From Diadema setosum (taxonomy: Eukaryota; Echinodermata; Echinoidea; Diadematoida; Diadematidae), in the NCBI RefSeq assembly GCF_964275005.1, contig NC_092686.1, positions 43,398,333 to 43,462,332 on the forward strand: a stretch of DNA of 64,000 bases, written 5' to 3'. The position numbers were made by a program, and so were the translations under genes. Under the pieces are notes generated by a model. That model was given only the letters and a program-made list of their open reading frames with translations, was not told the origin of the DNA and made no database searches. Below are positions 9,344 through 64,000 of this stretch, one piece after another. Every line of letters starts with the position of its first letter. Positions within the stretch are counted from its first letter, which is position 1.

Positions 9344-10760
9344 TTTGCAGCTTTTGGCCTTTGTTTAACCTTGATTCATTACATACATCAATAGACATAC
9401 TATTGAACAGACACATTTCATGCACTACGTGCAATGCATTTCAGAACACCTCTCATACGTTGTAATTCAGAGTCAGATTTGTCCTTTATCTCATGAGCTC
9501 ATGACTTTGTTTGTTTGTTTGTTTGTTTTTTAATTCTTCCTAATTCCCTAATCTTTCATGATAATGTTGGGTAAACTTTGATGAAAATTGATGTCCAAAT
9601 GATAGATTTAAGGTTAATCCAATTGTTCCATGGTTTTTGTTTGTTTGTTTGTTTGTTTGTTGTTGTTGTTGTTTTTGGTAGGGTGTTCCTTTACTACTCT
9701 GTATTCTGTTAAATAATCTTTTCTACTTTTGTTATTTTGTAAGCGCTCTGAGCCTCATGGGAAGAGCGCATTAGACATTAATTGTATGGTAGTGTATTGA
9801 AGACAGGCAGGGCAGTCAAGAATGCAATCAGCAGTGACCATCCCTCTTTCTGCTGTTCACTTTGGCCATTATGCGATGAGATGAATTCTTGTGAACTGGA
9901 GGTAACCATAAATGCAACACTGACCAGAAGACTATTCTGGGCTGCATAGAGGTGATTACAGCAAGCATGGAAACCTTTGCCTCTTTACAGCAGAAATTTG
10001 ATGATAATACAGTCAAACCTGTCTATAGCGACCATCAAAGGAAGATGAAAATAGTGGCCATTATTGACGGGTGGCCGCTACAGACAGGTTATCCTACATT
10101 TTGTGTGTATCACATACATTGACATGTATCCTGGTTGTATACCTCTATGAATACCTTCGTGTCTATGTATGTGTATAGATAAACATGCTTCATGCATTCC
10201 ACAATTTATTGATTCAGTCATTGATTGAGCTTTTGCTGTAATGCCAGCTTGCATACAGTAAGTATAAAAGCTTTTCATGAATTCATTATCATGCTTGAAT
10301 AGCATGTGAATGCAGCCGTGGTGAACACTGAATGCTGAATTATCGCCTCAGCTCTGGCTCCACATGGGTCTGAGGCTGCTATCCATAAGTAACCGTACTG
10401 CAGGAAACAAAATTGGTGGCCACTGCCTGCCTTGGACAGGTGGCCACTATGCACAGGGTCTTTAACATGTCTTTTCTCTCAGGGGATATTTCAGTGGCTG
10501 TGTGTGTGTGTGTCCGTGTGGGTGCACGTGCACAACAAGGTGGAACTGGGAAAAGTTTATTTTTCACCATATTGCTTCTATCTTCAAATCCAATGAAATC
10601 TTGATCGAGAATCACCATCTGTCTTTGAATCACAAGTGCTGAAATTTACTGCAATCATAATAGGAAGTCGCCTGGCAGACTTGTTGAGATATGGCCATTC
10701 TGACTGAACCCTACCACAATACTTTCAGCCAGGATGCTGTACCTGGAACTCAGACAGTCT

Positions 10761-12918: not shown

Positions 12919-30060
<17,142 letters not shown>

Positions 30061-30454
30061 AAGCCTGTGCATTCAGCAAACACTGGTCGCTCACTTTGAT
30101 CTATATGCATCTAAAATTATCGTGCCAAGCAGCTAGCCAAGTCATCGCTCAGCCACCCTCAAGATACAAAATGCCCACAAGCTTCCCGCGGCCTCATGTG
30201 TGTGGGTTGCGCGCGGCGTCTGCTCCACCTCCGTGCTCTGGATCTTCGTGTTACGAGTACTGTACAATGTACAATGTAGGGTTGGACCTACTGTACATAC
30301 TAGCAATATGCAATCGCAAGTTGGCGCTCGCTACAAACAAACGCACTTACCATGTTGTGTCTTGGGTAAAGATGTTATAGAACTTCTTTGGTCTTGGGCT
30401 TCCTGTTATTGTCGTTATTTTTTTTTTATTAATTTGTTTAAAAATAAATTAATC

Positions 30455-31278
30455 GTGATTGGTTGAAAGAGCTTCACGTGATTATAACTAAAATGATACT
30501 TTAAAGGGGAACGCAAACTCAAAGAAAACTCAAAGAAAAACTCAAAGAAAACTCAACAAAAATTCATTTTTCTAGCATTATGAAAGAGCAGTTGATTAAC
30601 CGCTTTCAGAAAGCAGGGGGAATATTATTGCTACCCTTTGTCAGTATCAAGTTGATGGAATTTATAATCTTCAAGAAAATAAATTCTTGTGGAATTTTCT
30701 TTATATTTTCTTTATATTGTTGTCCACTCATACGTCATAACCTCTATTAGTCTCCTCATCCAGCGGTTCCAACACCAAAACTTTAAAAATTCATAACTTT
30801 TGCATCGATTGTCCGATTTTCCTCAAGCTTTCACTGATGTGTTCTACTAATGTTGCTGCTTTCACTCAATTCACATTGCTCTTTGGGTTTGCATTCCCTT
30901 TAAGATGAATAGAGGCCCCATAGTTTTAGCCAGAAACTCGAAATTAGGCAGAGTATATTTGTTTGAAGTTTGGGATAAAACATCTAAACAAGAGACGGGG
31001 AATAAAATACAAAATGTAGGAGGCAAGTAGTCGTGTGGTGGATGCAAAATCAGAGTGACCTTACGAAGCAGGGCGCGATTATTTGCCTAATGTGCCATTT
31101 CACGAAGTGACCGTAAAGCAGCGTGCGATGTCAGATCGAATTGCATCACATGGGGTCACAAAGGTAATTACTGAGTTGTGATTTCACAAATAGTTAACTG
31201 TGGGGTGTAAAACAGGACAACATTCTGAAATAGTTGATATAATATAAATAATCACATGAAGCTCTTTCAACCAATCAC
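30455..31278. mobile_element. Inverted-end element upstream of VEZT with nested MITE
   Basis: GTGATTGGTTGAAAGAGCTT at 30455 is inverted at 31248-31278 with one mismatch over about 30 bp. The span includes the TTAA MITE at 30501-30903. It begins about 400 bp upstream of the VEZT start codon, in the shared VEZT-HAL intergenic region. Confidence 0.55.
30501..30903. mobile_element. TTAAAGGG MITE, copy 1
   Basis: TTAAAGGGGAACGCAAACTC at the left and GGTTTGCATTCCCTTTAA at the right. Much of the interior, including 'aaccgctttcagaaagcagggg' in pieces, is shared with 33589-34154. The left arm is shorter than in that copy. Confidence 0.75.
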
Positions 31279-32723
31279 TAAAGTAGTATCAGGGTAATCA
31301 TCCCCCCCCCCCCCCCCCGGCCCCCGAACAATTACCCCGGCTACATACTGTTTAGTGATAACGGTAGAATAAATAATATAGCTTCAGGATTAGGATTAGG
31401 ATTACGATTACGATTACTATTTTTGTCAGGGAAAGGTCCGAGGTAATTGTCCAGGGGGTAATTGCCCTAGATCCACTAAAAGATTATTTTTTTTTTCCAT
31501 CCAAAATATAACTTCGACTATTTCAATTTGTTGGCATGAATTGACACTCCATGATAGGCCCTATACAATTTCGAAATATGTCGTCACTTCATTTACAACA
31601 ACATTTTTCAAATCCCCCCCCCCCAAAAAAAAGCACGTAAGCAAGATGAGGAAATAATGCAAGAACAGAGACACAACAACCTGCAAGTCTGCAGGCACAC
31701 ATTGAGCAAACAAAGTTAGGGCCTAATTACCTTCACACAAAAGTTCATTGACTTTCCTCTTTTTTTCCCTAGTGGGAAAGGAGAAATGTGACAGGCAGAC
31801 CGGTAAAGGAGGGGGATGTTCACGGGATTCAAACAACCCTCTCCCCACCCCACCCCTAAAAAAAAAAGGAGGAAGGAATAAAGGTGTAACTTCGTCTCTA
31901 ATCTCCAGATGCGATAAGAGACTGTGTTTAAAAATATATATATATCGAAGTCTTACAAATAACCTTGTGCGTAGGCCCTCAAACAATACGTACGGGTACC
32001 CAGTACTGAGGTGGAAAGATCTCTTTTCACCTCCCTGGTACGAATAATGAATTTCTGTGGATGAACGCACTCTTGCCTACAGCCCGACCAGACGCTGTTA
32101 TGTCGCGCTACGTACGTACAGCGACTGGGCTGTGTATAGTTATCTTGCCTATAAAGTTTATCAACCGCTTGCATGTACACTCATTCCAGGTGTGCATGAT
32201 AGTCCTACTATACGGTGCAATCACGGGGTAAAAAAAAATGCTATGGGAGCAGTCCTGAGATATGATAAGTTTTGATGAAATAGGCAATCAAATATCAAAG
32301 TTAAGGCATCTAAAATGGAGAATATTACTCAATAATTTGCCAAAGAAATTCGAGGAAGTTCAAGCATGGAAGAGCTGCAGTGTGATCATGCTTTTTGCAT
32401 GATATCCCTCCCCTTTTTTCAGTGAGTCGGTGCATCGAATATTCGTACGAAACAATCTAGTTCGAAAAGGTCTCTCTGGCTTAACGTGGAGAGTGACGGT
32501 CAGTCATCCATTTTCTGACCTTTTCATAATGTTTTTTTAACTGTATTATTCGTTTCTAAACCCGTGTTTTGAGCCGTACATGCGAGGACGCATGTTCAAT
32601 CATACAGTGTGATGCGTGATCTCTTGGAGTGAGGGCAGTATAAAAGTTTAGTTCATTGAGATCATAAACACCCATAACCACACCTTCGATCTGAGCTGTA
32701 TGCCATAAACGTTTGCACCAGCT
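31279..32723. other. VEZT-HAL intergenic remainder
   Basis: Contains poly-C tracts (31303-31318, 31614-31624), a GGATTA/GATTAC short tandem at 31386-31418, and a small inverted repeat 'aggtggaaagatc...tcacct' near 32010-32034. No TATA box or other convincing core promoter was identified for HAL. The 5' UTR presumably lies in the last few hundred bases. Confidence 0.4.
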
Positions 32724-35700
32724 ATGAAAGTCAGAGCAAGACTGCGTGGAGAATGGATCCTTATCCCGTGCAAGAGCAACAAAAATACGGTGGACTGGTT
32801 GGGGAAGGAAAGTCTTTCGCGGTACCGTTCGATGAAGAACTATGTCGTGGAGGATGAGGTAGTCGAAGTCAGGAAGGCCCAATGTAGATCCCAGCTGTAT
32901 GCCAACGACTTTCTGACCGACGTCCTGGAAGAGATCGACTTTGTTCACATTGGTAAGCATAAGTTGCTCTAGTTTGAAATTCTTTCAGATAGAATTAAAT
33001 CACGATAACTACATGGACTGTTCCCACAATACATGTGACGCATAAACAATCGAAATAATAGTGATAGCAGCGAAAAGCAACATGGACACAAAGAACGTTA
33101 ACGATAATGAAAATGTCATCGCATGTAGTAATGAAAATAAACTATAGATAACGATTCAGGGTAGTCACAGTGTCAGTGTTCGCCAAAGCAGACGACAGTG
33201 CTGTCTCCCAGCATTGACGGGTAACCATTTCAGTATAATCAGACTTGTATCAAGAACGGCAATGCTGGTAGGATATCTCATGGGCAATTGCCAGAATTCA
33301 AACCAAGCAGCTCGTGCTCAAGAGTGAAGAATAAACCATCATTCATAGATACATAGATCCATAGATAGATAGATAGATAGATAGATACAAATTTGTAGGT
33401 AGATATAGATAGATAGATAGATAGATAGATAGAGATAAATCTATCATATCGACTATAGATATAGATAATATATATGATCTGCATACATATAAGTAGATTT
33501 ATGTCGTATAAATTATTTATTATATGCAAATTCATGATAAAGATATCAGGAACGGCCAGATTAAAATAATGTTTCTACCCTTCAATTATTAAAGGGAAGG
33601 TAAACCCAAAGAGCAATGTGGATTGAGTGAAAGCAGCAACATTAGTAGAACACATCAGTGAAAGTTTGAGAAAAATCGGACAATCGATGCAAAAGTTATG
33701 AATTTTTAAAGTTTTGGTGTTGGAACCGCTGGATGAGGAGACTACTAGAGGATATGACGTATGAGTGGACAACAATACAAAGAAAATATAAAGGATATTC
33801 AACAAAAAATAACTTTTCTAGAATTATGACAGAGCAGTGGACCAACCGCTTTCAGAAAGCAGGGGGAATAACTGCTACCCTTAACATATGTCAATATCAA
33901 GTTGATGGAATTTGCAATTTTCATGAAAAATGGATTTTTGTAGTATTTTCTTTATATTTTCTTGATATTGTAGTCCACTCATACGTCATAACCTCTAGTA
34001 GTCTCCTCATCCAGCGGTTCCAACACCAAAACTTTAAAAATTCATAACTTTTGCATCGATTGTCCGATTTTCTTCAAACTTTCACTGATGTGTTCTACTA
34101 ATGTTGCTGCTTTCACTCAATCCACATTGTTCTTGGGGTTTATCTTCCCTTTAAAGCTACATTTCATCCACAATGATGTATTCCTTTTAAACTGCACCAA
34201 CTACGGCGTTCAAAAGTGCAACTCAAAGCAGTATATGGGTTACACTGCAACTTCATTGTCTCTGTACTGCTTTTATACCTGTGTTGGATATTACTGTCTT
34301 GCAGTACTGAAGACTGATAAATCGAGTGTGGATCAGCCGGGGTCGGATTGTCTTAGTGCGGACTTCACTTCACCTATTACAGAAGCCATGTATCCTTGAA
34401 TTGATCTTGATACATAGATAACCAAAATGTCTTAGATTTCGTGTCTTTTGTTTGTTAGTTTGTTTGTTTGTTTGTTTGTTCAACTATAGAGCGCCTTGCA
34501 GTTACTGAATCATTCACGTTATTCTATTTATGATAAGAGCAGGTAAATTGAATAGTTAACGTCCACGGGAAAAAAAAAAAGAATGAATAATTGAATAAGT
34601 CTTTATTCGTTATAGGATTCCATTTCTTTGTTGTCGTCGTTGAAAATATCGGTCACTATAAAATTCCTGTGATGCCACATAAACTAAATGCAATAGATCC
34701 TACATCTGTCTGCAGTACACCAATGGGATTAGAATTTAAACCTTAATAATGTTTACCAATTTTTACCAGATTGCTTGAAAATGGAGTATGCAATAAGCCG
34801 GTGAGTTTGTGATTTCTGCTTTGTTTTTGTTCCAGAGTCATTCCACAGTGTCACACGTCATGATTATTGCATGCATGCTTCTGACACAATACATGCCTCG
34901 AACCTCACCAAATTTTACTCACACATTCATGTTCTATTACGTCTGCCAAATTACTGGCGACGAAAATATTTCGTATATGATATAAGAATTCTATTCTATC
35001 GTATTACATTAAATAAATACTCTATCGTATTACATTAAATCACATTACTCTCTAAAATAAATCGAGTGAAAATATTCACTCTTAAAGGAGTGAATACAAA
35101 AAAAGAGTGAAATTGGAGTGAATTTTTAGTGAAAATGTTCATTTTGGAGTGACCTCAGGGATCACTCGAAGATTTTGGAGTGATCCCTGAGGTCACTCTA
35201 AAACGAGTGAAAATTAACATTTTCACTCAAAATTCACTCTTTTTTGTATTCACTCCTTTAAGAGTGAATATTTTCACTCGATTTATTTTGAAGGAGTATA
35301 GTATACTCATTATATTATTATTAAATGTCATATTATAACACATCATGTCATATCATATTCAAACACGTGTACCAGTAAATAAGATTCAATCATCATAATT
35401 GTTCCCTCGTCATCTAGGTAACGGTATAATACTGGTAATATTAAGAGTATTTGACTACTTGTGTGATTTTCATTTCAAAACGGAAAGGCATGAGCATGAC
35501 TTATTGATGATACTGATCATGGCCGGCGGAGCCGTGGGGGCCGTGTGGGCTCGGGCCCCCACACTTTTTGTGCATCATACATCAAGGAATACATAAGGTG
35601 TCATCACTTTGGGCCCCACACTTTTTTCAACCCTGAAGTACGTAAGTGGCACTAAATGGAAATAGATAGAGATCTTGCCACCCCCCCCCCCCCGTCCCCG

Positions 35701-38700
35701 GTCCCGCAGCCCCACCCCCCCCCCACACACACACACTGAAAAACGTTCCGCGGCCCCTGTAATGTACTGTAAACCTATGATTAATACTATGAGTTCTCTC
35801 GTGAACTAAATCGACCTTGATATCGATTCATGTGACAGTAATCTGTAAATGATTTGGACAAAAAAAAAAACCAAAAAAAAAAATTTACACTATTCGCAAT
35901 GTACACTATTCCAAAAGAGTGGTCCACATTTTTCAAAAGAATTAAGAACATAGGGGCCTTCACGAAGATCATATAACGATTCAACAGTTCTCTATTAATG
36001 TCCTGTGTGTGTGCTGCGTATGTGTATGACACATTGTGTGCGACTTGGGTGTGCTCTATTATTCAAGACTATTTACCTGGATGGCTGCAGCCTCAAACCA
36101 GAGGAGCTTGTTCGTCTGGGTCGTGGAGGTCATAACATTGAGGTAAGTAGTAATCCTATATACATCTCATCAGTGGAGTAAGGTATAGGCCTGACCTTCC
36201 CTTTGTTTCTTAAAAATCTGAAGAAAAAATGTATTGCATGATGAGCGAGATACTGGTATTAGATTGTCTCACATATCGACTACCGGGTATAAACTAAGTG
36301 TGTTAAACATATGTTAAACATGTGTTAAACATTTGTTAAACGTCCTTTCAACCAGCTCCATTGTGACATCAACCTTTGTGTACTTTGTTCATGTTGTTAG
36401 GCATCCTCTTGGTTTTTGATATAACTGCTAAAATCTATATCATTTCAGGTAAAATGCGTGCTTTCATGTACGCAGGAAATCGCAGTCAATTTTCCTGATG
36501 GGATGCGTGATAGTGCGGTTGGTGCATTTATAACAGGCCCCATGTCACAGTGGAAATTGACAAAAGTTGCCAAAAATTGACAAAATTGACCAAAGTTGCA
36601 CAAAATTGTACAAAATTGCATAAACTTTTCACAAAGTTGCTCAAAATTGCGCAAAGTTGTACAAAGTTGCATAAACTTTTCACAAAGTTGCACAAAATTG
36701 TACAAAGTTGCACAAACTTTTCTCAAAGTTGCACTAAATTGCGCAAAATTGTACTAAGTTGCACAAACTTTTCTCAAAGTTGCACTAAATTGCGCAAAAT
36801 TGTACAAAGTTGCACAAACTTTTCTCAAAGTTGCACTAAATTGCGCAAAATTGTACAAAGTTGCACTAAATTGCGCAAAATTGTACAAAGTTGCACTAAA
36901 TTGCGCAAAATTGTACAAAGTTGCACTAAAAATTGCGCAAAATTGTACAAAGTTGCACTAAATTGCGCAAAATTGTACAAAGTTGCACTAAATTGCATAA
37001 ACTTCTCACGAAGTTGCACAAAAATGTGCAAAGTTGTACAAAGTTGCATGACCTTCTCACAAAGTTGCAAAAAATTGCGCAAAGTTGTACAAAGTTACAT
37101 TAACTTTTCACAAAGTTATGCAAAATTGCGCAAAGGTTCACAAAGTCACATAAAATTGTACTAAGTTCCATTAACCCGTTGAAGACGAGCTGATTTTGCT
37201 ATTACACGCAATTCTTATGACCCCAGCCCGATTATACCCGGGACTCGTCTTCAACGGGTTAACTTCTCACAAAATTCCACTTTAATTCTTCTCCCTTCCC
37301 CAAATGAGGTCCAAATGTGCTTGCTCCGTGCATTCTGTGCGCTTTCCTATCTTGCTAACTCTAATATCTTTGGTACTATCAAAGAGTTAACAAGATAGGA
37401 AAGCGTGCAGTATGCATGGAGCAAGCACATTTGGACCGCAATCGGCAGTCAGGCACAAGATCGAAATACCGTTCTTCCCCAAAAGAACGGTTTATGGCTG
37501 TTTTGGGGCCTGATGAATAATACATAAACCTTAGTCCCGTCATGCTTTGCGATGCGTTGCGCGTTATACCTATGGCCAACAAATGTTTGGTTTGCAGTAC
37601 CGTTTTTCAAAAAATATTTACGGAAAATGTCATGGCTCAATATTTTTTACAAAACGCATGAATCATGAAGAATACATAATGATACTTCTCTGTTAATATA
37701 AAAGAAAATGAGCCATGACATTTTTGAGAATTTCCACTGGAATACGTAATTAGGCTCGATATTTTTGAAGATTTGAACGAACCGTTCCTTATAGACGTGT
37801 TCAAACAGGCGCTTTGTCAAATAACGCAATCTGGTAAGGGTATTGTTTGTTATCAGTTGGGTTGCAACTCGCTAATGTTTATCAATGTAACATCTTATCG
37901 TGAAGCTCAGAGACATAGAGTAGAAGGGGGGGGGGGTGGAGCAGAATAGATGATTTGGTAATGTAGACAAACTATGTATTCACCTGTCAAATACAACCAC
38001 ATCACAATAGTCAGAAGGCGAACTGCATACATTAGTATTGCCAAGTCGGACAAACATTGTAGCTTGTCAAACCTATAGCAACATTCACTGCGGGTGACGA
38101 TCATTCCATCCATTACAATGTTATTGTTTGTTATCAGGTGAACAAATGTTTGCTTATCGAAATTTAACAAAGGTGTGTGCATGAAATTTGACATTACGAA
38201 ACCCCTCTATTGAACCGGGGGGTAAGATTATGTAATTGTACTTGTTTTGATTTCTTATATACCAAGATATGCAATTGAATTATGACAAACGAGCAGGGGA
38301 AAACATTCTAAAACGGTACTAAAAACATCTCCCGCTCTGCGTATAATTTTGGGTCAACACCCTGTTTGGTTTTCAAATTATGGGGTTTGCTTCTCCTACT
38401 TGACCCCCCCCCCCCCCCCCCCACCAAGCATGCACATCAGGCCAGGTAGTTTTTGGACCATAGTAATCGCGAAATGGAACTGCATTGTCTTAGAATAAAA
38501 GCGCTACATATTGAGACACTAAAAATATGTGTGTTTGTGTGTATGTATGTATGTGTGTGTGTGTGTGTGCGTGTGTGTATACTACTAATAACGTAACAAA
38601 ACTGCAATACCTTCAAAAAGAAACTATACTGAGAAATATTCTGTGCATGTGTGTGTGTTTGTGTGTGTGTGTGTGTGAGAATGAAGTTACCATGTCACCC

Positions 38701-40405
38701 GTTCACGTATACGCAACTCCTATCATTCTTGCGTGCAGATCGATTAATAATTTTGATGTTTTTGGTTGTTTTGAATAAACGACTGCGTAGAGTCTATGTA
38801 GCACGATCTCAAATTCTACGCCATCACGCGGCGGGTGATTGAAAACAGCCAAAAACCATTCTTTTCCATAAGATCGGTAAATCGATCTTGCGCCTGACTG
38901 ATCGGGCAGAACTATAATCACAGAGCTAAGAATACAACTCAGTCCGCCCGCAAGCATTGATTATTTATAAGATAAATGGTGTTAATATTATCTTAAAACG
39001 ATTTTAAAATTATACACGATTTTTGTGATATAAAGTGCTTGAATCGTAACAAAATATTTTAGAAAAATAAGGATTAATTCGTGTACATGAAAAATAGGCA
39101 ATGCCACAATACGCCAAAACACAATCAGTGACTAAAGAAATACGCGCATCAATCACCAATCAGTTGCGTCGAATTTATTGATCACGCGCCTTGCCATGAT
39201 CAAGTTTCACTGCGCAATATATGGGTGATTGCGCACGCGTCCATTTGTATTGTACATTAATTGGATATTGCGTACCACTATAACTGAGAAACTACCCACC
39301 AAGTGCGACTGAGTATACCCGCGTATGAATTAATTAGCACGCTTGATGACCGCGCGCTGTCCATTTGTTTTGTACATGAAAATCGCGCAGTTTCCAGTCT
39401 TTTCAATTAAGCGTCTTTGGTACTATGCTATATCCAGTGGTTATAGAGATCGAAGGATAAAACCCAAACAAACTAAGAGATGACGTCATTTCGATTCATG
39501 GTGCGCCGGACGTGTCAAAACTTGAACTACTTGAAAAACGATTCTTTGCAAATTTGCGGCTGTTTCATTGGTTGAAAGTTAAAATGAGGTCTGTATCGAT
39601 ATTCACAAGAGATATCGATACGCCATCTTCATTCTTTTTCTCAAGTCGAATACTGTATAGTCGAGTCGAGTCAAGATACAAAAATATGTCGTCAAAAGCG
39701 AGCCCACTGCTGAAGAAACTCATGGAGTCTCATTTAGATATTAGACCAAGTGACTTGATCATTATTAATGATAAACACATAAAACAAATTATTTCTGATT
39801 TACGCGATTTCTTTAATTTTAAAGTGTTTATAATTCCATTTGATCAATTATTATTTTTTTTTTTTAAATCATGATGATTATAATTTCATACCCCACATGT
39901 TACCGGAACAAGATAACACAGGAAGCCATGTACATGGCATCTGATATAAAGGTAAGCCCTAAGATTTATATTACTATTAGTCTATTCGAATTTGGAACAA
40001 TTTAAAAAATATATATTTATTTATTGTTTTGTGTTTGTTTTTATTTACATTTTTTGTGTGTGTTGTGGTTGTAATAGAACGTGGCTCTAAAGGCAGTTTG
40101 GATTATTTAGGAATGGGGTGGGGGTTTTTCATTGCATTAGGCAGCTTTCTAACGCCAGACCGAACGTCAAGCTTAGTACGAGGTGACGTCTCAAATTCTT
40201 ACCCTCGGGTCGTCTTCTAAATCTGAGGACGGGAGTCGGTGGAGATTTCCCCGATTCCACGTCGTCGCGACTTGTAACGACGTGAGTGACACTGTATTTC
40301 TTTGTAAGGCCTAGATCTATATGATTATGGATAATAATCTAATTCTGCTAGTTTAATCTTCACGGGCCTAAAAGATAGATTGAAGTGTTAAAATTCACAT
40401 AAGTT

Positions 40406-40438
<33 letters not shown>

Positions 40439-43400
40439 GGGGGGGGGGGGTTATGAGGCATTTCCCCCATCAGAAATGTCCCCCCCCCCCCCCCCAGTTA
40501 ACCCAAACACTAAAAATGACCTCTAACATGTTGTTAGAGACTTTAGAGGTCAATGACTGTCTAACATTGGCAGTCGCCAATTCCCCCGAAAATGTCAATC
40601 CAACTTAACACCCCAGGTTCTTCCTTCCCCTTGGCCTTCTTCTTCTTTCCTCTTTTTTTTTTTTCTCTTTTCCTTTCCCCTTTCTCTTCTTCCATACCTA
40701 AAGAAAATTTGTGACAAATTTTAGACAAGTTGTCTGATTTTACCAACATCAGCAAAGAATAAGGGGAAAGCACGAATGACAATAAATCAGAGCGAAGAGA
40801 TTGTGTTACATGCAGTCTCTTCGGCTCGAAGAAACTTGACACCCCACCTCTCTCCCCTTGTGGAAATTTCCACAAAAGCAGGTGCCACACCCAGGTGCGT
40901 GCCAGACGAAAGAATGCGCGCGCTGGAATAAACAGCGTGTAAATATCCTGGAAATATCGATCGAAGAACCAGCTCATTAAGTGAATTAAAGGAATCATTG
41001 CAAAGATATCGTGATTCTATAGCCTTTCTTTTGGCGCATAGTAGGAAACATCAAACAGTCGAATATAGTGTACTTGATCGAATATCTTATGTTCCCTGAA
41101 CACTAAAAAAAAAAAAAGATCGATTAATCAGTCAATTAAAAATGCAATCACAGAAATAAAAAGGTCTCGTATGCCCAGAGAAATTCACTACGAGTAGGTT
41201 CAATGAGATGCAGTCATCACCTGGTTAAGACAGCAAAATCGTGACAATTAATTTCAGTTCACGCTCATCATAACTGCTTATTACTTATCAAAGTTTTGGC
41301 CAGGGAGGTCTTTCTTCCACCTCCCTGGTTTTGGCTATCAACATTCGTTCGTACGTGTTTTTTGTTTGTTTGTTTTGTATGTTTTTCCTCAAGTGAAAGA
41401 CGTAATGATTTCTTCGTATCGAACGTAGACTATGTTTACCGTTTATCCAAACAGTAGGCGCCTAGGCGTACTTTCTGAATATATTCAGAAATTTCTATCA
41501 ACATTTTAAATATATTACAAGACTCCCAAATACCAGTTGAAAAAAAAAATAAGAAATCGAATTTTTGAGATATGAACAACAACAAAAAATAACTAGATCT
41601 GTCGTCTTTGGGACACGATACATACATGGTATAAGTATGAACTTGATAGGCATAGCACTTTCTGAGCTAACCTCTGCACAACTTTTGGGGAGAAATAAAG
41701 AAAGAAAGAAAGAAGAAGAAGAAGAAGAAGAAAGAAAGAAAGAAAGAAAGAAAGAATCCGTACAGATACAGAAGGTGATTCGAGAGGATACTCGGATCAC
41801 CTAAAAATGCATAGGAAAAGACCACTTCAACTTCGAATGACTTCGAATTTCTCAAAACCGTTCCCTAGTTCATGGACATCCCATAGAAACGCGTGTTTTG
41901 ATATATAGGCCTACACGTTGCTATGGCATGTCCTCGAACTATCTAGTTTCGCGAAACTACGGCCTGGCATGGCCACAGTAATTTTTTTCCGTAACCTCCC
42001 GCCTCCCCTTCCCCGATTCGAAAACAGCTTGATTGAAGCCCCTGCCTATATTTAAACACGAACCTTATTAAACCCTAAGTTAGGTACATGGTTTATATGG
42101 CTAGTGTTTGAATAGAATTTACTATTTTAAGTTAATAATAGACTGTCAGTATTGCAACTGATTAACAAATTGCCCTACATCGACGTAAATATTTTGTTCA
42201 TAAATATGAATAAGACTCTCATACGTAGTTCCATAATCGTTTGTGTGTCGATCGGCAGGTTAGGGTTACGGAAAAAATAATCGCGGCCTGGCCTCTGCTC
42301 TGCCATGCCTCGTCTTCTGTACACGTGTATGTACGCCTGTACTGTACGCCTGTACTGTATACATGTACAACACGGTCCACATCACGCACATGGTTTTGCA
42401 GCAGATTTCACGGTCGACGGTCCGTCGATGCTACACTACAGCAGTGAATGCGATTGAAGGATAGCGAGCTTCGCGATGCCGCGGGCTGTATGTGATGATT
42501 TTAATCACAAATCGTGTTTGGTAGTGTGTTTTTTTGAGCAAATTTGTGCTCAAACCTTCTGAAAAGACCTTTAGTCTGACATCAGATAGAAAAAGAAGAC
42601 ATACGAGAATGAAGTGAGTATCAGTATGTTATAATAAAACTGAATGAAAATTGTGTCATTTTCGCGTTTTCAGGAGCCGGTGAATTCGCCCGGCTCGCGA
42701 TCGCGAGTTTGTTTTATTCTGTTACGGAGGGATACCATGCAAGAAGCCTCGCAAAATTACATGACGGTCCTATTAACGAACCTTTTGACACACTCTGGTT
42801 AAATGACCGACTATGACGCACATAATGGGTCAGTATGTGACGGACATTTTGCTCCCGTGACGGTACCACGCGTCATCAAATTGGTGGTACTTGACGCGAC
42901 AATGGGTGCGTTTATCAACTCTCCTTTCTCGGCAGAAACAGGTTATCCAAACAGCTTTCAAGGAATTTTCACGAGTTGATAAACGCAAAGCTGTTTTGAT
43001 AGCCCTTTAGGAAAGCCTTTTCGATAGCCCAAAATTTGTGACGATCCAAACAGGTTTCCTAAACAGGTTATCAGAAACCTGTTTGTAAAAGCCTTTCGAA
43101 GTTGATAAACGCAAAGCTGTTTTGAAAGCCCTTTAGGTCGCCCTATACTGCGGTTGCGCAACCATGCGTTTCCAGTTTCTGAAAAGACGCGCGCCACGTA
43201 AAGTGCACACGAGTACGTGTACACAGGTGTATACATACAGCTGTGTGTAATGCACGCATATGCTTGGAACAAGGAGATGTTTCTCTCACCAACAAGGTTT
43301 GAGAAATAAAGTAACAACAGTCTCATTCCCTTTGATCCCATGTCTCATGCCGCTACTCAGAAATATTTGAAGTATGTGCTAAACTGGAGCTGCCTCACAG

Positions 43401-46400
43401 ATAGGAAGACAATAATTGATTCATTATTATTGATTCATGTGGCATTGTATCATGACTCCTCACTCTCAACAAAGGAAGATATGTCTTTATGATGGTAATT
43501 GCTTTTCGCCGTCCCTTCTTAGAAAACAAGCGGCACATTAATAGTACAGGCAGTCAGGGCTTTGGAAAGAGCTCTCGAAAGGGCTATGGAAAGGGCTATG
43601 GAAAGGGCTATCGAAAGTTGATAAACGCAGCCGACGAAAACAAGCGGCACATTAATGGTACAGGGAGTGGAAAGGGCTTTCGAAAGGGCTATGGAAAGGG
43701 CTATCGAAAGGGCTATCGAAAGGGCTTTCGAAAGTCGTTTAAACTGGGGAAAGTTGATAAACGCAGCCCATGACGCACTTTTCCCGGGGGTCAAGAGGTG
43801 CGTCATACAAATGACAGCTGCATAAACATATACACTCGTGGCTATCTGGTTCAATGCTCAGACACTTCTTCTTGGAGAACAGTTGCTCTAGTTTGCGTTC
43901 CTAACAAGAAATATTATCCGTAGTGTTGCTCCACATAACAAGTCATGATGTACAATTTTATTATAACTAGCGGGTACCCGTGCTTCGCAGTGGCCATGGC
44001 CACTGTGCACAATGAACGCGTCGCCGCAGTTACCGTGCATTCGCGTCTGACGCGAGCATCACCGTCATCGCGCGTATAACATGACCCTGGTTGATAAAGT
44101 TTAGTGATAATGTTTGTGAGACAAATATTTCACCTTTATAAAACATTGTTAGAATTACACGCTTCATATAAACTGTGAAAAGTGTTAGTCATGATGAGAA
44201 GTACATAGGCTTAGGACATGATGATTTTGATTGGTGGGGGGGGGGGGGGGTTGGGACTGAGATGCAATGAAATTTCTGTCCAATGTTATGCATTCCAGGA
44301 GGCAAAGCTACTTGGCAGGGGTTCCAGGGGGAAAGCACCTTATTGAGGATCATGGCAAAAATGTGACCGTCCACAACGAATCACTCGTTAAGTTGGTACC
44401 AAGGTGAGTCTGGTTTCTGGGTTCTGTTTGTTTCCAGTGGAAGAATTGAACAGGTGTTCTCTACGATAATGTGATCCATGGGCGTTTGTTTGCATTGATT
44501 GAATGAAGTATGTTATACATGACCGACCCAGTTACCACCCATTGCCTTTTATCGTTCTTCGTAATCAACAATGCCCAGGGATTGCACTATGGTACAGAAC
44601 ACCTAATCAATTCTTCTACTGAAAACGAACAGAAACTAGTCTCAAATCGGATCCGACTTTACAAGCGATTTGTGGTGGATGGTCACAAATATGCTGATGC
44701 CTTAATGAGATAATGAAGGTCTAGTAGATTTGTTCATAGGGTCTTCCTTTGCATATGAAGTGATGGCTTGAGAAAACTACTGGTAACCACAGTGTTTCTT
44801 GTGTTTTTACTACTATGTAAAGTGTGCAAAAGCTTGTGCATGTCAACAACAATCAGTATCAGGTAGCCATTGCACATAGATATACCACTATTGTTATTTA
44901 TATTAGGCCATATGAGCCGACCCATTCATTTTTAACAGAATTTTTATTGGACTTTTTTATGGGAGTATCCGCTACAGACCCTATATGCATTCCACCATGC
45001 GGAACAGCATTACAATTGAAATTGCCGCCATCGTGGAGGGCATGGCTTGTCATGTACACCATTTCGCTGGTTTGCATCAGAGTTGACAACCCATTGATAC
45101 CGGGAATCGGTTGACCAGGCAACATTTCAATATAACCATTGTTTTCTGGCATCTTGTAGGGGCAGAAATTCTATGCATAGGGTCTATTGCATTTGCAAAT
45201 GAAAGTGAGTCAGAATTCCCAGTTACACCAGCCCAAATCAAATTATTGTCCCCTGGATTTACATTTGGAAAACTGTTTATAAACAATGTCCCTGCTGTAC
45301 ATGTATCACAAGCAGTGGTGTGTGTATTGTGTAAAAGTATATTTCTTATATTTAAGAATCCCTATATTCCTTAGTTTCTTTTTGTTTGTTTGTTTGTTTT
45401 GTTTATTTTTTAAAGATATCGAAATGACAAAACTGGCTCAAAGCCTGTTCACTTACTCCTTTATCTAATTTTTATTTTCTTGTGACAGCTTCTAAAATCC
45501 ACCAGGAACTAGTAAGAGAACTTAAGTCTGATGGAAAATGTCAGAAAATTGTAACAAGCTCCTCTGCAGCACAGATGCTTCGTTTCTCCTTTATGAGTTT
45601 GACCGATTCAGGAGCATGACTGGCAAAGTTTATGGCGATAAGACCTATGAAGTACTGACAATAAATCCAGTTATGTTCTGGTGTCCAGTGATGGACTGTA
45701 AATCAAAGAAAGATATGATACAATTATCTATAATGGAGCTCTAGGGTCATTCCATGCCAATTCACCCAATGAAAGTGCAATTTTGCACCCTTCCGTCTCA
45801 GAATTTGCTCAAATTTGGTACACATAAAGTTTAACATTACCTTCCCATGAAACAAAAAAAAAAAATTAGCATTAACGGTCCGTCGGTTTCCGAGCTATGG
45901 CCCGCCCTATTTGATTCGTTTTGGCAAAAATGGTTGTGACCTTCCATTTCAACGGCACAATGCGCCTGAACTGGTTGACCAATTTTTGTGAAACTGGTAC
46001 CATTCAAAAGGAAATTCGAAGAGGAATTCAAAAATGGTATCAAACATATTGGAGAAAGTTAAAGTGCTATGACCTTTGACCTTTCCTTTAACCTTGCTTT
46101 TGCCCCCCAGACGAATAATATTTTTACTTGATTTTTATGTATGTTAATTGTCAGTATAGTATTAACATAACATGTAAATATCTAGGATGATATTTTATTT
46201 CTTCACCTTTAAAAACTCTTTTTAATGCAATTTACAAAGTTACTGTTACCCCCACATACTGATATTGTGTTGGTAATGTGTGTACAAGACTCCATTATAA
46301 ATGAATACTTTCAAACTAAAGTAACATTACAATCAAATGCAATAATGTATTCCATATCTGTTGCTGATGCTTCAAAGATCTCAAGGATGTATCCAGTTTG

Positions 46401-49400
46401 GGACAGTAGAGCTGACTACATGTAGGAAGCATTTTGTTTCTGTCAAAACTGCAGATTTCTGATGATTTGTATATGTATACCTATTGCACCCCAATCAAAA
46501 GGGCTAAACAAATGTCTCTCTTCATAAGCAAATGGAGTCTACGTACATGTATACATTATCATTGTGTTTAATGTTTCCTTTATTACCTGAAATGTTTAGT
46601 TTTCTGTTTTAATTGAATGTAATTTAACTTCAGTTTGGAAGTATTCAAGTAAGCCTGAAGACACGTGTAAAGAACGTCGCTGCATTATTTTTTTTTGCAA
46701 AAGTTCTTAATTTTTTTAATTATTATAATTTATGCAAATGAGGTGCATCAAATTTCATAAAATTCACAAATATATCAATATTTCCTTCAAAAATTATAAT
46801 TGGATTCTAATTCTTTGCAGAAAGTATCCCAGAAGCATTGTCAACAAGATTATATGGTAATATTTTCAAATTTCAAAACATTTTCTTTGTATTGTATTGT
46901 TTTCCGAATTTCTTATGTATTCTATTGTTTTTATTTCTTATGTATTTCTTTGTTTTTAAGATTTTTTTTTTTCTAATCTAAAATTAGTTGATGTGAAGTC
47001 ACATAACATCTTTTAAATGGCCTAGAAGATTGAAAAAGCTGTGTTTTAGAGCAATTTATGAAATATGCTGCTTTGCACACAAACGTATGGGAAAAGCAGG
47101 TTTTTGCCAAATTTTGGGCAGACATGCACTTACGAAATGTCACGTGACCTCGCGACCGGTGGTCGGATTTTCGCAAAATTTATTTCAAAAGAAAAAAAAA
47201 GTCACCAAAAATTATCACGCGATCAGCGGCGGTCGCGCGGCAGCAGAAAATTTTGTACGGGGGGGGGGGGGGTCAATTTGACCCCCCCCCCCCCAGTGGA
47301 CATAGGGTTAAGGGAATCTCTTAACCATGATTAAGTTAAAGGAAGCACATAGTTTAAGGGACTCATGGCGAGTGTTTTATTACACAAGTGTTAATGGTGA
47401 AAATGGCCACAGGACAAAAGTTCCTTCTAAGTCAGCAATATTTAATTCTCCATTTTCAGTGCCACAAAAATCTTCTTAATGTGTGTAATTATGGAAGTTA
47501 TATCTCACTATGATAAATGCTTTTTCCTGACCCCCCCCCCCCCTACTATACTTCATGATCAATTTTGCCAAAACTGGTTTATGTCATTAAGAGACAATGC
47601 CGACGAACTGTTCAATACAGTTAGAGGAAGGGTAGTAAACAAAATCCAGCAGTCATATCACATGTATCACATTTTAAGTATAATAAATTGTTTCTTCCAT
47701 TACAAAATATTTTTGCAAGCAGGTCTTTTTATTTTGTTCACTAGTACCACATAAAATACTCCAGGCATTGCATGTCATCGTTAGATTTGCGATAGTATAT
47801 TTAATTAGTTAATGCTAGAGTTCCATGTAATTATCTCCCAAAGAATTTAAAAGGTGGGTGATCCGTTCCACAGCATCATCCCCCACTTTACCGTATTGCA
47901 TATATGGAGATTTTGGAACCACATGAATGTTAATATTTTCTCCATGATCCCTTTAGATATGAACAAAATATTATAGAGGGCTAGAGGATTAAAAAATTAA
48001 TAAAGAAATCTTTTATATACATGCACATCTGACATTGCACCATTCTTGGTGTCCTCATACTCTGTGACTGAAGTACATGTATGAATACAGAGTTTCAAAG
48101 ATGATGTTCAACTATGTGATTGTTTGGCAGAAGTGCATGACCACAGGAAAGATGCAATAGTATTGTTATAAAGTCCTGATATTTGAAATCATATACAAGA
48201 TAAGATTTTGAGACGAATGAAAGAGAGCAGGCACCAAAAGTCAATATATTTTGAAAACCTGCTCAAAGTGGCATTGTATTGTGTGCAGGTGCTAAAAATT
48301 GCTAAAAAATGTTTGATATTGTGCAAAGTTCCCTTAAATTGTGCAAACTTTTCCAAAGTTTCCTGAAAATGTGCTAAGTTGCACAAAATTGCTGGAAATG
48401 GCGCAAAGTTGGGCAAAATTGCCTAAAATGGCGCAAAGTTGTACAAAATTGCCTGAAATGGTGCAAAGTTGCGCAAAATTGCCCGAAATGGCGCAAAATT
48501 GCTGGACATGGCGCAAAGTTGCGCACAATTGCCGGAAGTTGCGGAAAATTGTCAGAAATGGGCACAAAATTGCCGGAAGTTGCGGAAAATTGCCAGAAAT
48601 GGGCGCAAAATTGCCGGAAATGGCGCAAGGTTGCGCAAAATTGCCGGAAATGGCGCAAGGTTGCGCAAAATTGCCGGAAATGGCGCAAGGTTGCGCAAAA
48701 TTGCCGGAAATGGCGCAAGGTTGCGCAAAATTGCCGGAAATGGTGCAAGGTTGCGCAAAATTGCCGGAAGTTGCGGAAAATTGCCAGAAATGGGCGCAAA
48801 ATTGCCGGAAATGGCGCAAAGTTGCGCAAGCAAATGCAAAGTTGCCTAAACTTGCATGTCAACTTTGCATAATGTTGCGCAATCTTTGTCAATTTTGTCA
48901 ATTTTTGGCAACTTTTGTCAATTTCCATTGTGACATGGGGCCTTATAACTTATTATGCATGATGAATATCGTGACCTTTGAATGACAAAGAAATAAAAAA
49001 AAAAAGATTGGCGCACATAGATAAGGCAATAACACAAGTGCCTCTCAAATTTTTATCTGTTTGCAACGATTTATCGTTTGAAGTAAGTTCAAATGGATGT
49101 TACTTCTTCCGCGCGCATTAAAGTACATGCAGATCTATGTATTGTTATACTGTAAGCATAGTGGCCTTCGGCATCCAAAAGAAATGTAACGTCTTCTTTT
49201 TCTTACACCATAGCTGACTCCAACAGCATGGAAGAATGTTGCCAAAGCTCGAGACATGGTTAATCAAATCCTGAATGAAAATAAAGGTAACGACATGCTA
49301 TAGATATTGTGAGAAGATAAGCATAATCATCATAGTAGGGCTCTATACCGGTCCTGAAAAAAAAAGAAGAAAAAAAAACATTTGTCAGTTATATAGAATA

Positions 49401-49489: not shown

Positions 49490-52400
49490 GTAAGTAGATT
49501 ACTAGATATAGATAGATAGATTCAAATTGTTTGAGTTATACAAAACGTCAAAATATGTACTCATGCTTTAAGTAACAGAATACATTATAGTCATGTAAAA
49601 ATGTGCAAAATACCTAGAACGCATCATGTAATTTTGCAATTATATTGTAAGCAAAGCAAACATACAATTCTTTCTTTCTTTCTTTCTTTCTTTTTTTGGT
49701 GTTGTTTATAGCAAGAAGGTACTAGGCTTGCCTGTATAATTATAGTACCTTTTTGGTTATAGATGACATTCTTTTATTTGGCAGTGAATTTCTTTCCAAA
49801 AGATGCAAACCATGCGTGAACCACATTGTATTGCACTTTTACATCTGATTACTGCAGGGTTAATCCAAAATAGTGTTGTTTAACATCGCTACATGGAAAA
49901 ACGTAGAACATTTCTAGTTAGATAGGCTTCCAGTTGAAACAAACAAACAAATAAACAGGAGTATCACAAAGAGCCTGAGGCTCTCTGACATACATCACTT
50001 CATCACTGCCAGAACTGTAAGAAGGAAATCTAAGACCACTGGCGATAGATTTGAGGATTATGTAATCTACCACCAACATATTTTTTTTTCTCAGTACACC
50101 GAATGGCACTAAGTTAAAAAGAGATACTGATTCTTTTACTCTTTTCATTTCGTTTTTAATCTTATTCTTATTTTAATCGGGGAATATGCAATGTGGTTGT
50201 AGAAACCTCGTCTTTTTCCTCAACTGTACTCAGTGATGGCAAATTGGCTGACGTCAAAGAAGAGTCACATTATTGAGGTCTTCTGATGTAAACTAAGCAA
50301 CGCCTAATGCAGAATTTGTCGTCTGCGTGTGTGTGCGTGTGCGTATTTGTGTGTGTGTGCGTGTTGGTGTGTGTGTTTCTGTTGGTGTGGATATCTATCT
50401 GCCCTTTCGGTTTTAACCCATCATAACATTATTGTTACATGAACTTCAGTGTCCACCGTCACGCATTATTTCGCATTCATTGCATATTTCACTCCTATAA
50501 CACTCCTATAATTATTAATAATATTAATTATTGATAATATAACTCCTATTTCACTCCTATAATTATTGTTCTTATTATAATTATTGTTCTTACCCCATGT
50601 CCCTTTGCTGACTATCTTTCTCTCGGTATTATGTTTGGAATTGTTTGTCAAAAATACATTCTGGTGCAGATCACAAAGCCGGTTCACTGATGCAGAAGGC
50701 GCTGCGAGTTTTACTCGTAAACAATATCATTGTACTCCATACTTGAATCTACACCTGCCATAATATGCCCATGCAGTGATAACTCTATACGCCACAACGG
50801 TCTTTTAAGTGTATGACTCTACATGGAACAGGTCGGGGTGCTATGACCGGGGCCTGACTCAAATATACAACTCAAACATGCCCCAAAGTATCACTGATAT
50901 AATATTATTAGGTGATCCGAGTATCCTCTGATATGCTTGTCAACTCATTTACTTTCTCTTTACAAAATGGACGAATGTCCAGCTCACAAAGAAATGGTGT
51001 TATTACCTTGATACCAAAAAAAGACAGAGATGTCTCCTATTTGAAAAATTACAGACCAATATCTCTCTTCACAGTAGATTATAAAATCTTAGCCAAAACT
51101 TTAGCAAACCGCCTCAAAAAATGTCTTTCAGACTTGATTCACCCAGACCAATCTGGTTTTTTGAAAGGAAGGCATATTGGAAATAATATCCGACTAATTA
51201 TCGATGTAATTGAATATACAGAATTAAATCAAATCCCTGGTGGAATCCTTCTCCTTGATATCCAAAAAGCCTTTGACAGTGTTTCCCATAATTTCCTTTT
51301 TCATGTACTTAGAAAATTTAATTTCAGCGATGATTTCATTGATTGGATAAAGGTTTTTTATTCAGATAGAAAAAGTTATGTTTCAAACTATGGATATTTG
51401 ACCAAACCAATTGATATGGAAAGAGGTATTTTCCAAGGGTGTCCCATATCCCCATACTTATTTTTGTTAGTTATTGAATCTATGGCTCTTGCTATTCGAC
51501 AGAACCCCAATATCAAAGGTATCCCAGTTTTAGAAAACGAACTGAAAATATCTTTGTTAGCAGATGACTCTACTTGTTTTATTGATGGCTCAGATAACTC
51601 CTTTAGAGCATTATTTGACACTATTGCTTTATTTTCTGAGTGCTCTGGCTGTAAACTTAATATTTCTAAATCCGAAGCAATATGGATTGGCTCTATGAAA
51701 GGTTCTCAAAGATTTCCATTTTCCGAGAAAGGACTTAAGTGGAATAAGTCTACTTCTAAAACTTTAGGCATTCACTTTTCTTTAAATCTAGACCAGTTAT
51801 ATGAACTTAACCATAAGATAAAACTTAAATCCATTGAAAATACCTTAAATTGTTGGCGCGCAAGAAATTTATCTCTGGTTGGGAAGATCTGTGTCATAAA
51901 GACCCTATTGCTGCCACAAATTCTTTATTTTTTTTCAGTGCTGTGTATTAGAATTCCTAAGAAATTTTTTAAACAGCTGAATACTACACTGTACAAAATT
52001 GTGTGGAATGGTGGCAGTGATAGGGTCAAAAGACAACTGGTGTGTAATGACTATTCTTTAGCAGGTTTGAAAATGATTGATTCATACACGTACTCAGTTG
52101 CCCAAAAAATGTCATGGGTCAAAAAGCTTCTTGATGACAACTTTCAAAGCATGTGGAAGTCAATTGAATTGTCAAATTTAAATAATTTTTCTACTTTAAA
52201 AGATATATTATGGAAATCACATGCTCCGACAAGTGTCTTAAGCAAATTGAGATCAACTCAATTAGCTGAATCTCTTCAAACATGGTACATATTTAGAGAA
52301 AATTCTCTCGGATCACCTTCTGTATCTGTACTGAATCTTTCTTCTTTCTTTGTTTCTTTCTTTATTTCTCCTCAAAAGTTGTGCAGAGGTTAGCTCAGAA

Positions 52401-62811: not shown

Positions 62812-62959
62812 GTAAGTTGGCTCATGACGTATGATGTACCAGCATATTCATGCTGTGGTTTAATGTTTCTTTGAAGTAAAATACGCTTTCCACTCTTATC
62901 TTTACAGATTACACGGGAGAGAAGTTCTTGTACGTCTATTAGCCAACACTCCTATCATC

Positions 62960-64000
62960 ATGCCTGCCATCACGGAAACCATCAACTGTCACACATGCGG
63001 AGCAGTCTTCCAGCACTGGACAAATCTGTATCGCCACAAGAGGATCTACCATCCAAGTGATAAACATACTCATCACATGTGTGATATTTGTGGAAAGGTA
63101 TTCAGTCGACGCGATAACCTGTTGAGGCATACGAAATTTCATACCTCCGATGTGGAGAAAGCAGGATGCCGGAAGTGTGAAGTCCAACTGTCTCAAGAAA
63201 ATGATGTACGGCGTCACGGACATCCTAATCATCGACCTCAAATGTACGCTTGCGAAATTTGCGAAAAAGAATTTACTCGGAAAGACAATTTGGCTCGACA
63301 CCAAAAAATTCACGATGCTGACAGCGGCAAGACCGACGACTGCAGGGCGACACCACCCCAAACAGACACCGACGATAACACATTACCGACTGAAGCGGAT
63401 ATCCTTGCAAAGCATCGGAAACTGATACAAACTTATTCACGGACATCCAACAAGGTGCGACATCTTTTTAATTTTGAACTGGCAAACTTTGATGACGAGG
63501 AGATGAAACAGTTGGCGAGACAAGTGTTTGACAAACAAAGGACGGCATTCAAGGTGAACGTGGCATTTGGGTTCATCTTACGAAATAACGAGACGGGGGA
63601 GTTAAGATATCACTACGCCTCTACCAACAATCGATTATTCCCTGCTCCCCATCAGATCACGGACCAAACATCTTTCGATTCTTTTTTGAATGACCTCGAG
63701 AAAGCGGACTACCTCGAATACGCGAGACAACAGAGACCAAATTCAAAATGGACCGTCCAGCGCATCACCAACCTGTCATTTTACATTTACCCATTGCGAG
63801 ATTTCCCTATCGGATGCCAAAGAGGTTCTCTACCTGATTACATTATTCGGAACAGATCTATCCTTGACCACTCTCTGATGAACCTTGATGAGAATACCAA
63901 CCTGTGCTTCTTCCGTTGCCTGGCCGCCCACTTACAACGGCGTAGCCAGGATTTGATCTTAGGGGGGGCGGTTAGTCTGCGAGGGAGCGAAGCGACCGAG
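62960..64000 (+). CDS. C2H2 zinc-finger protein of a mobile-element-associated family, N-terminal part
   Basis: The frame is open from ATG 62960 to the window edge (347 codons, no stop). Residues 8-30 form a C2H2 finger (CHTCGAVF...HKRIYH), and residues 43-63 a second (CDICGKVF...HTKFH). A degenerate CRKCEVQL unit follows, then a fourth finger (CEICEKEF...HQKIH) near 97-117. A conserved region follows (AFKVNVAFGFILRNNETGEL, LEYARQQRPNSKW, DFPIGC, LPDYIIRNRSI, NLCFFRCLAAH). I recall this arrangement from large invertebrate proteins that continue into a B-family DNA polymerase or nuclease region in virus-like or Polinton-like elements; that link is from memory. The downstream domains are not visible. 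After NLCFFRCLAAH the sequence changes to a repeat-like tail (63939 on), so the gene may be interrupted. A spliced leader precedes the start codon. Confidence 0.7.
   Translation, partial: MPAITETINCHTCGAVFQHWTNLYRHKRIYHPSDKHTHHMCDICGKVFSRRDNLLRHTKFHTSDVEKAGCRKCEVQLSQENDVRRHGHPNHRPQMYACEICEKEFTRKDNLARHQKIHDADSGKTDDCRATPPQTDTDDNTLPTEADILAKHRKLIQTYSRTSNKVRHLFNFELANFDDEEMKQLARQVFDKQRTAFKVNVAFGFILRNNETGELRYHYASTNNRLFPAPHQITDQTSFDSFLNDLEKADYLEYARQQRPNSKWTVQRITNLSFYIYPLRDFPIGCQRGSLPDYIIRNRSILDHSLMNLDENTNLCFFRCLAAHLQRRSQDLILGGAVSLRGSEATE
63939..64000. mobile_element. Start of an interspersed repeat breaking the zinc-finger ORF
   Basis: GGCGTAGCCAGGATTTGATC followed by 'ttagggggggcgg' and 'gagggagcgaagcgaccgag' is a repeat-type sequence with the self-similar GAGCGAAGCGA word. 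It is unlike the preceding coding sequence and continues past the window. Confidence 0.6.

Follow-up and report, generated by a model that had tools for sequence, protein, structure and literature searches.

Starships (with a captain recombinase) and Teratorn (with piggyBac and herpesvirus genes) are very large elements of variable content. The sea urchin TU element is taken here to be a foldback element. Tetris and Mutator-type foldbacks are described with target duplications of 8-10 bp in the account of PMC4079207. Polintons are given target site duplications (TSDs) of 6 bp in the relevant passages of PMC10045372, PMC8969392 and PMC8097293; for vertebrate Mavericks, PMC8097293 reports ends of the form (AG)3 or (AGT)2 and terminal inverted repeats (TIRs) of 46-1447 bp. 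The termini of IS3EU/GingerRoot are TA..TA, occasionally TG..CA, as summarised in PMC10045372. Dada, as presented in PMC3706591, has no TIRs and inserts into multicopy small RNA genes. The locus compared with these systems lies in the window, a stretch of 64,000 nucleotides of Diadema setosum (C2:43398333-43462332; assembly of 912.7 Mb in 102 contigs). It holds a 12,409-bp element between two exons of a HAL-like gene. This element is read, with a probability of about 0.7, as a non-autonomous copy, shortened by an internal deletion, within a young family of giant TIR DNA elements.

Structure of the element and its host intron

The first-pass annotation had proposed one unit of about 12.4 kb with inverted ends. 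Ends and flanking duplication delimit such a unit.

36529..36534, no strand: left TSD, 6 bp, TATAAC, read at the left boundary
36535..48943, plus strand: whole element, 12,409 bp
36535..36618, plus strand: left TIR, 84 bp, from inverted-repeat comparison
36554..37167, plus strand: left subterminal array, ~10-bp units, TTGCACAAA-like, from a repeat scan
48318..48829, plus strand: right subterminal array, ~10-bp units, in direct orientation relative to the left array, from a repeat scan and array comparison
48860..48943, minus strand: right TIR, 84 bp, from inverted-repeat comparison
48944..48949, no strand: right TSD, 6 bp, TATAAC, read at the right boundary

The termini are AGGCCCC...GGGGCCT, the inverted ends start GGCCCCATGTCACA and the end sequence of the family is AGGCCCCATGTCACA. 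The two TIRs of the window copy differ by 9 mismatches, only 1 of which falls within the first 56 bp. The duplication had been given as TTATAACA/TTATAACT, of 8 bp; it is TATAAC, of 6 bp. A tandem array is present inside each end as annotated; the mirror orientation is not. Compared on the plus strand (direct orientation), left and right arrays agree at 70% over 356 bp; minus-strand matches reach at most 48 bp and 20 bits.

The label of foldback element, also proposed at first pass, was rejected on array orientation and duplication length. The subterminal arrays of ~10-bp units do resemble foldback arrays, and the window copy is without clear coding. The inverted part is nevertheless limited to 84 bp, the arrays are direct, and the duplication is 6 bp in 23/23 two-ended copies (see below), against the 8-10 bp described for Tetris and Mutator-type elements in PMC4079207; a true foldback or TU-type element of the Mutator kind is very improbable.

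The proposed insertion in a HAL intron agrees with the flanks: one HAL-like exon ends at 36142 and the next starts at 49214. The label HAL comes from splice sites read in the sequence and from tblastn with a human sequence as query, which gave three matches that are ordered but weak (E 3e-6, 0.17 and 0.046). Without the element the intron would measure about 655 bp.

Two hairpins lie within the element, at window 37300-37445 (arms of 63 nt, 87% complementary; loop of 20 nt) and at 37624-37724. Rfam matched nothing in window 36400-49100.

Copies of the family and their shared deletion

Copies were searched for with both ends as queries and then with a 25-base end pattern allowing up to 3 mismatches, over 912.7 Mb. 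The pattern has at least 50 matches (reversed control, 0). Among the 50 ends listed (24 left-type and 26 right-type, told apart by one base), 48 are exact; the other two both belong to copy C10c, with one C fewer at each end. Since no end with 1 or 2 mismatches occurs among the matches listed, no decayed older copies were seen. The ends define at least 27 copies, 23 two-ended and 4 one-ended (C15d; C3; C20, with N at its left end; C59, at a contig end). The two-ended copies measure 11.9, 12.4 (window), 12.6, 14.9, 15.8, 16.3, 17.1, 17.2, 18.9, 18.9, 19.2, 19.4, 19.4, 20.1, 20.8, 21.9, 23.2, 23.3, 24.7, 27.4, 36.7, 45.1 and 151.3 kb (median, 19.4 kb; n=23). Copy C6outer (C6:34594138-34745471), a 151-kb span with matching ends and the duplication AAAAGG, encloses the nested copy C6b.

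A perfect 6-bp duplication was found by script in 22/22 copies with standard ends, and all 22 are different. GCTTCT was read by eye on both sides of C10c, which brings the 6-bp duplications to 23/23 two-ended copies. Other copies had thus been rightly expected at first pass; the 8-bp duplications expected with them are replaced by 6-bp ones. TIRs together with a target duplication of fixed length characterise a TIR DNA transposon (class II), and both are present. The same data bear on the proposal that each arm inserted independently, as a solo element, beside an interior of host intron, which the first-pass annotation had itself named as the competing outcome. This is extremely improbable. 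Nothing was found in its favour, the 23 pairs of left-type and right-type ends each have one common 6-bp duplication, and the interior is found again inside other copies. A single-copy host intron was likewise ruled out, as interior probes recur in other copies.

In shared blocks, substitutions relative to the window copy amount to 0.48-0.78% (7/7 copies compared). Identity ends at the termini, with zero matches in the outer 594-604 bases of the seven whole copies compared. In an empty-site test, the flanks of the 23 copies were joined minus one duplication and compared with the sequences fetched in the analysis; those of C10a aligned across the junction over 153/153 bp, at 98.0% (L018) and 97.4% (L025), and these are unoccupied paralogous sites. 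Segmental duplication or assembly artefact, in place of transposition, could be suspected from shared blocks that are 99% alike, from the 151-kb span and from the copy at a contig end. It is highly improbable, given that flanks differ, that identity stops at the termini and that C10a has unoccupied sites. The family consists of young, recently spread giant TIR DNA elements.

Interiors were fetched whole for C1, C4a, C4b, C6a, C6b and C7 and in part for C8, later also whole for C10c and C24 and in part for C12 and C10b. Colinear blocks are common to the window copy and C1, C4a, C4b, C6a, C6b, C7 and C8. Their order is common left; left-A or left-B; short middle; right-A and/or right-B; common right. 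The window copy has the following blocks.

36535..40748, plus strand: common-left block, present in the other copies fetched
40749..43734, plus strand: left-A module, partly shared with C6b, C7 and C8 (gap 42776-42891)
43886..44089, plus strand: short middle block, in most copies
44088..46656, plus strand: right-A module, from block comparison and a genome probe
46656, no strand: internal deletion junction (right-B missing), the same in C6b, C7 and C8
46656..48943, plus strand: common-right block, from block comparison

A right-A probe matched 18 places (16 in two-ended copies, 1 in C59 and 1 at ~41 kb from the left end of C15d) and a right-B probe 14 (11 in two-ended copies, 1 in C20 and 2 on C15). 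Both modules occur together in six two-ended copies. The window copy is without right-B, a block of about 6 kb with the 3' part of the candidate gene described below; it is an internally deleted, non-autonomous member of the family. Its deletion junction, probed with 40 bases, occurs in C6b, C7 and C8 and is missing from C1, C4a, C4b, C6a, C10c and C24. The four copies that share the junction are separate insertions, each with a duplication of its own. It therefore seems that the deleted form has itself transposed, which points to an enzyme supplied in trans, by which deleted copies presumably moved.

Inserts private to one copy are often other elements: C4b holds a gypsy-type open reading frame (ORF), C8 one of LINE type, and C7 an insert read as DIRS-like, with an ORF matching Phage_integrase. 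The centre of C24 is lost to a private insert also read as DIRS-like. In C12, of which 30 of 45 kb were read, a large insert is taken to be gypsy-like. The middle 6.5 kb of C10b is mostly another tandem array, a long one in which both strands have open frames and which replaces most of the shared core.

Two further inserts have an unusual structure. That of C6b (13080-32500), nested and 19.4 kb long, is bounded by inverted ends of its own (TCGTCG..CTCAATGGAAAAAGGGGTTA) and shows large internal tandem duplications and an apparent TA duplication, judged against the empty sequence in C8; it is possibly a second giant element. That of C8 (14888-16396) is a 1.5-kb private insert that matches itself in inverted orientation (96%) over almost its whole length and contains direct copies.

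Candidate gene and domain searches

Fuller copies seem to carry a candidate multi-exon gene on the plus strand, with an RS-rich start, an orphan middle and an acidic repeated tail; its predicted exon phases are compatible. The ORFs and candidate exons concerned are the following, in window coordinates unless a copy is named.

39461..39871, plus strand: putative coding ORF of 137 aa (150-161 aa in some other copies), with length-changing indels between copies
44299..44403, plus strand: exon proposed at first pass, with a strong donor (AAG/GTGAGT); its phase misfits the best chain of fuller copies
45160..45204, plus strand: candidate exon AEILC, identical to C10c
45489..45712, plus strand: candidate exon SKIHQ, with a 1-bp deletion and AT instead of a GT donor in the window copy
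C1 7501-8053, plus strand: candidate exon RS, from the exon chain in fuller copies
C1 10019-10084, plus strand: candidate exon ELMAT, same chain
C10c 9718-9762, plus strand: candidate exon AEILC, same chain
C10c 10047-10271, plus strand: candidate exon SKIHQ, same chain
C1 13246-13421, plus strand: candidate exon KVTLS, same chain
C1 14590-14964, plus strand: candidate terminal exon with acidic 27-bp repeats, same chain

Exon chains were scored with a home-made chain finder. An initial exon screen was too strict, and thresholds were relaxed after inspection of the HAL splice sites; in an earlier version of the finder the terminal exon was joined to a very small initial one. C1 scores 35.7 (at most 9.6 in 60 shuffles and at most 8.0 in intron controls) with a finder whose tuning followed the discovery of the terminal exon, and which is hence not blind. 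The chain of C1 was closed by the finder in an additional exon of its own. The window copy scores 8.4, a value reached by 2/60 shuffles (best intron control, 8.0), so its exon-like ORFs, annotated as having good splice sites, are not above chance as a gene; two of them nevertheless coincide with exons of the gene better supported in fuller copies. The window copy had also been proposed as the autonomous source of its class, with which its internal deletion and its defective SKIHQ are at odds.

The family may be self-mobile, its own multi-exon gene encoding, or being required by, an undescribed transposase, and window-type copies being defective derivatives. The C1 score favours this, as does the joined frame of five exons from C1 and C10c, which runs over 464 residues without a stop. 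Indel columns are also fewer in exons (2/1170, against 197/15808 elsewhere; C1 as reference). The substitution rate per base compared is no lower there (0.0056 in exons, 0.0051 elsewhere; C10c as reference), and variation between copies thus gives the candidate gene mixed support. Codon statistics across copies were uninformative, with too few substitutions. Other points count against self-mobility. The two longest candidate exons are coded by tandem repeats, which inflates the chain score, and the antisense strand of C1 reaches 14.0. The best chains of C10c (23.4) and C4b (31.9) take partly different middle exons. None of the copies checked has a complete exon set: SKIHQ is absent from C1 and C6a and interrupted by the gypsy-type insert in C4b, KVTLS is absent from C4a, C4b and C10c, and ELMAT is also absent from C10c. 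Judging from how far apart their right-A and right-B matches lie, C10a, C15b and C16a seem to be without KVTLS too. In the candidate protein no catalytic domain was recognised: Pfam gave nothing above weak noise for it and PDB no match. Self-mobility is considered unlikely.

Domains were searched with Pfam in three rounds. A profile search had been proposed at first pass; the first round (10 window ORFs, E up to 1) gave two weak matches, below the cutoff. The second round covered sets of 127 and 84 ORFs (E up to 0.01; by recount, 202/291 listed ORFs plus 9 more); ORFs in flanks or arrays, and those that overlap retroelements, were omitted. The 127-ORF set gave three weak unrelated matches (SUR7, DctQ, Tuberin), and the 84-ORF set gave retroelement domains and weak matches to GxDLY, Herpes_UL87 (E 0.0046), Mito_fiss_reg and Dam. 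The matches to rve and RVT_1 trace to the gypsy-type ORF of C4b and the LINE-type ORF of C8. The third round (239/239 ORFs of a later ORF list) gave three weak matches. Among the shared-core ORFs scanned, from the window copy and seven further copies, no transposase, integrase, polymerase, ATPase, protease or capsid domain was recognised; the scans left out C10c, C24 and the parts of C12 and C10b, and other copies are known only at their ends. A large protein set has no match to the spliced candidate (residues 185-378) or to the 161-aa ORF; it says little for this organism, because a host-exon control matched nothing either. The undescribed transposase or cargo gene suggested at first pass thus stands in part: an undescribed gene seems to be present in fuller copies, and no transposase was recognised.

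Three other features lie outside the element. Downstream, in the HAL-like gene, window 50912-52390 (plus strand) holds a 493-aa ORF that by eye is LINE reverse transcriptase-like. Upstream, the peptide stretch PLVVSSSSGSNTKTLKIHNFCIDCPIF occurs on both strands, at 33578-33817 (minus) and 33992-34396 (plus), as an inverted duplication. An open frame of 379 aa at 62864-64000 (plus strand) runs off the window; its coding score is 23 with a rough codon table.

Proposed mobilisation and comparison with described systems

The best reading is a new giant TIR family, mostly non-autonomous, moved by an enzyme not recognised here. An enzyme supplied in trans would recognise the TIRs, and the subterminal arrays perhaps serve it as repeated, accessory binding sites. 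A 6-bp staggered cut with little target specificity would then allow insertion of the whole unit. The ancestor would have been fuller, roughly 19-25 kb, and probably had a multi-exon plus-strand gene mostly lost from the window copy. For the enzyme, an integrase of retroviral/Polinton type is ranked first because the 6-bp duplication and the AG...CT ends fit it best; this assignment is tentative and may well be wrong. A new superfamily of giant animal DNA transposons is an unlikely further reading. On that reading an intact form (~20-25 kb), located in this genome or carried by other individuals, would encode a spliced protein, RS-rich with an acidic tail, which either acts as the transposase or is required by it; the present copies would be its recombined or deleted derivatives, still moving in trans.

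Several points weigh against the best reading. Empty sites were found for 1/23 copies only; the other 22, HAL site included, have no spanning match. The two right-B places on C15 are linked to no bounded copy. Gene conversion could also spread shared deletion junctions, although this is less likely. No enzyme or autonomous partner was identified among the copies examined, and no genome search aimed at the Polinton polymerase was completed. For the Polinton step in particular, the ends found here, AGGCCC, share only AG with the (AG)3 or (AGT)2 reported for vertebrate Mavericks.

No description of such a family was found in the open-licence literature, surveyed without full texts. In the author's judgement, young families of animal DNA elements of tens of kb without a recognised enzyme are unusual. 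Because the copies are nearly identical and their 6-bp duplications clean, one can test directly which enzyme is able to move 12-45 kb in the germ line of an animal. The family also provides a set of recent large insertions, one of them within an intron of a metabolic gene, and offers a candidate orphan gene for expression testing.

Among the systems introduced above, Starships and Teratorn are similar in very large size and variable content. They differ in that no captain recombinase, piggyBac or herpesvirus gene was recognised in the shared core; the Phage_integrase match lies in the private insert of C7 read as DIRS-like, and the 84-ORF set gave the weak Herpes_UL87 match. Foldback elements (Drosophila FB, Tetris and TU) share short-unit tandem arrays inside the ends and little coding content. 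The arrays of the present family are direct and not inverted, its duplications are 6 bp and not the 8-10 bp described, and its copies are of 12-45 kb. Dada, from what is described of it, is similar in its 6-7-bp duplications and differs from a family that has TIRs, 22 different target duplications and a copy in a HAL-like intron. IS3EU/GingerRoot elements share 6-bp duplications; their reported termini differ from the AG..CT found here, where no transposase was seen. Polintons/Mavericks differ in core genes (protein-primed polymerase B, integrase, ATPase, protease, capsid), none recognised in the shared-core ORFs scanned, and the direct 10-bp arrays inside the ends set the present family apart. 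The end motif also differs, AGGCCC here against (AG)3 or (AGT)2 in vertebrate Mavericks. They are similar in the 6-bp duplication and in ends that begin AG and end CT, and, within the limits of the published figures cited, in size, most copies here falling within the 12.7-24.6 kb of vertebrate Mavericks (PMC8097293), and in the 84-bp TIR, which lies inside the vertebrate Maverick range.

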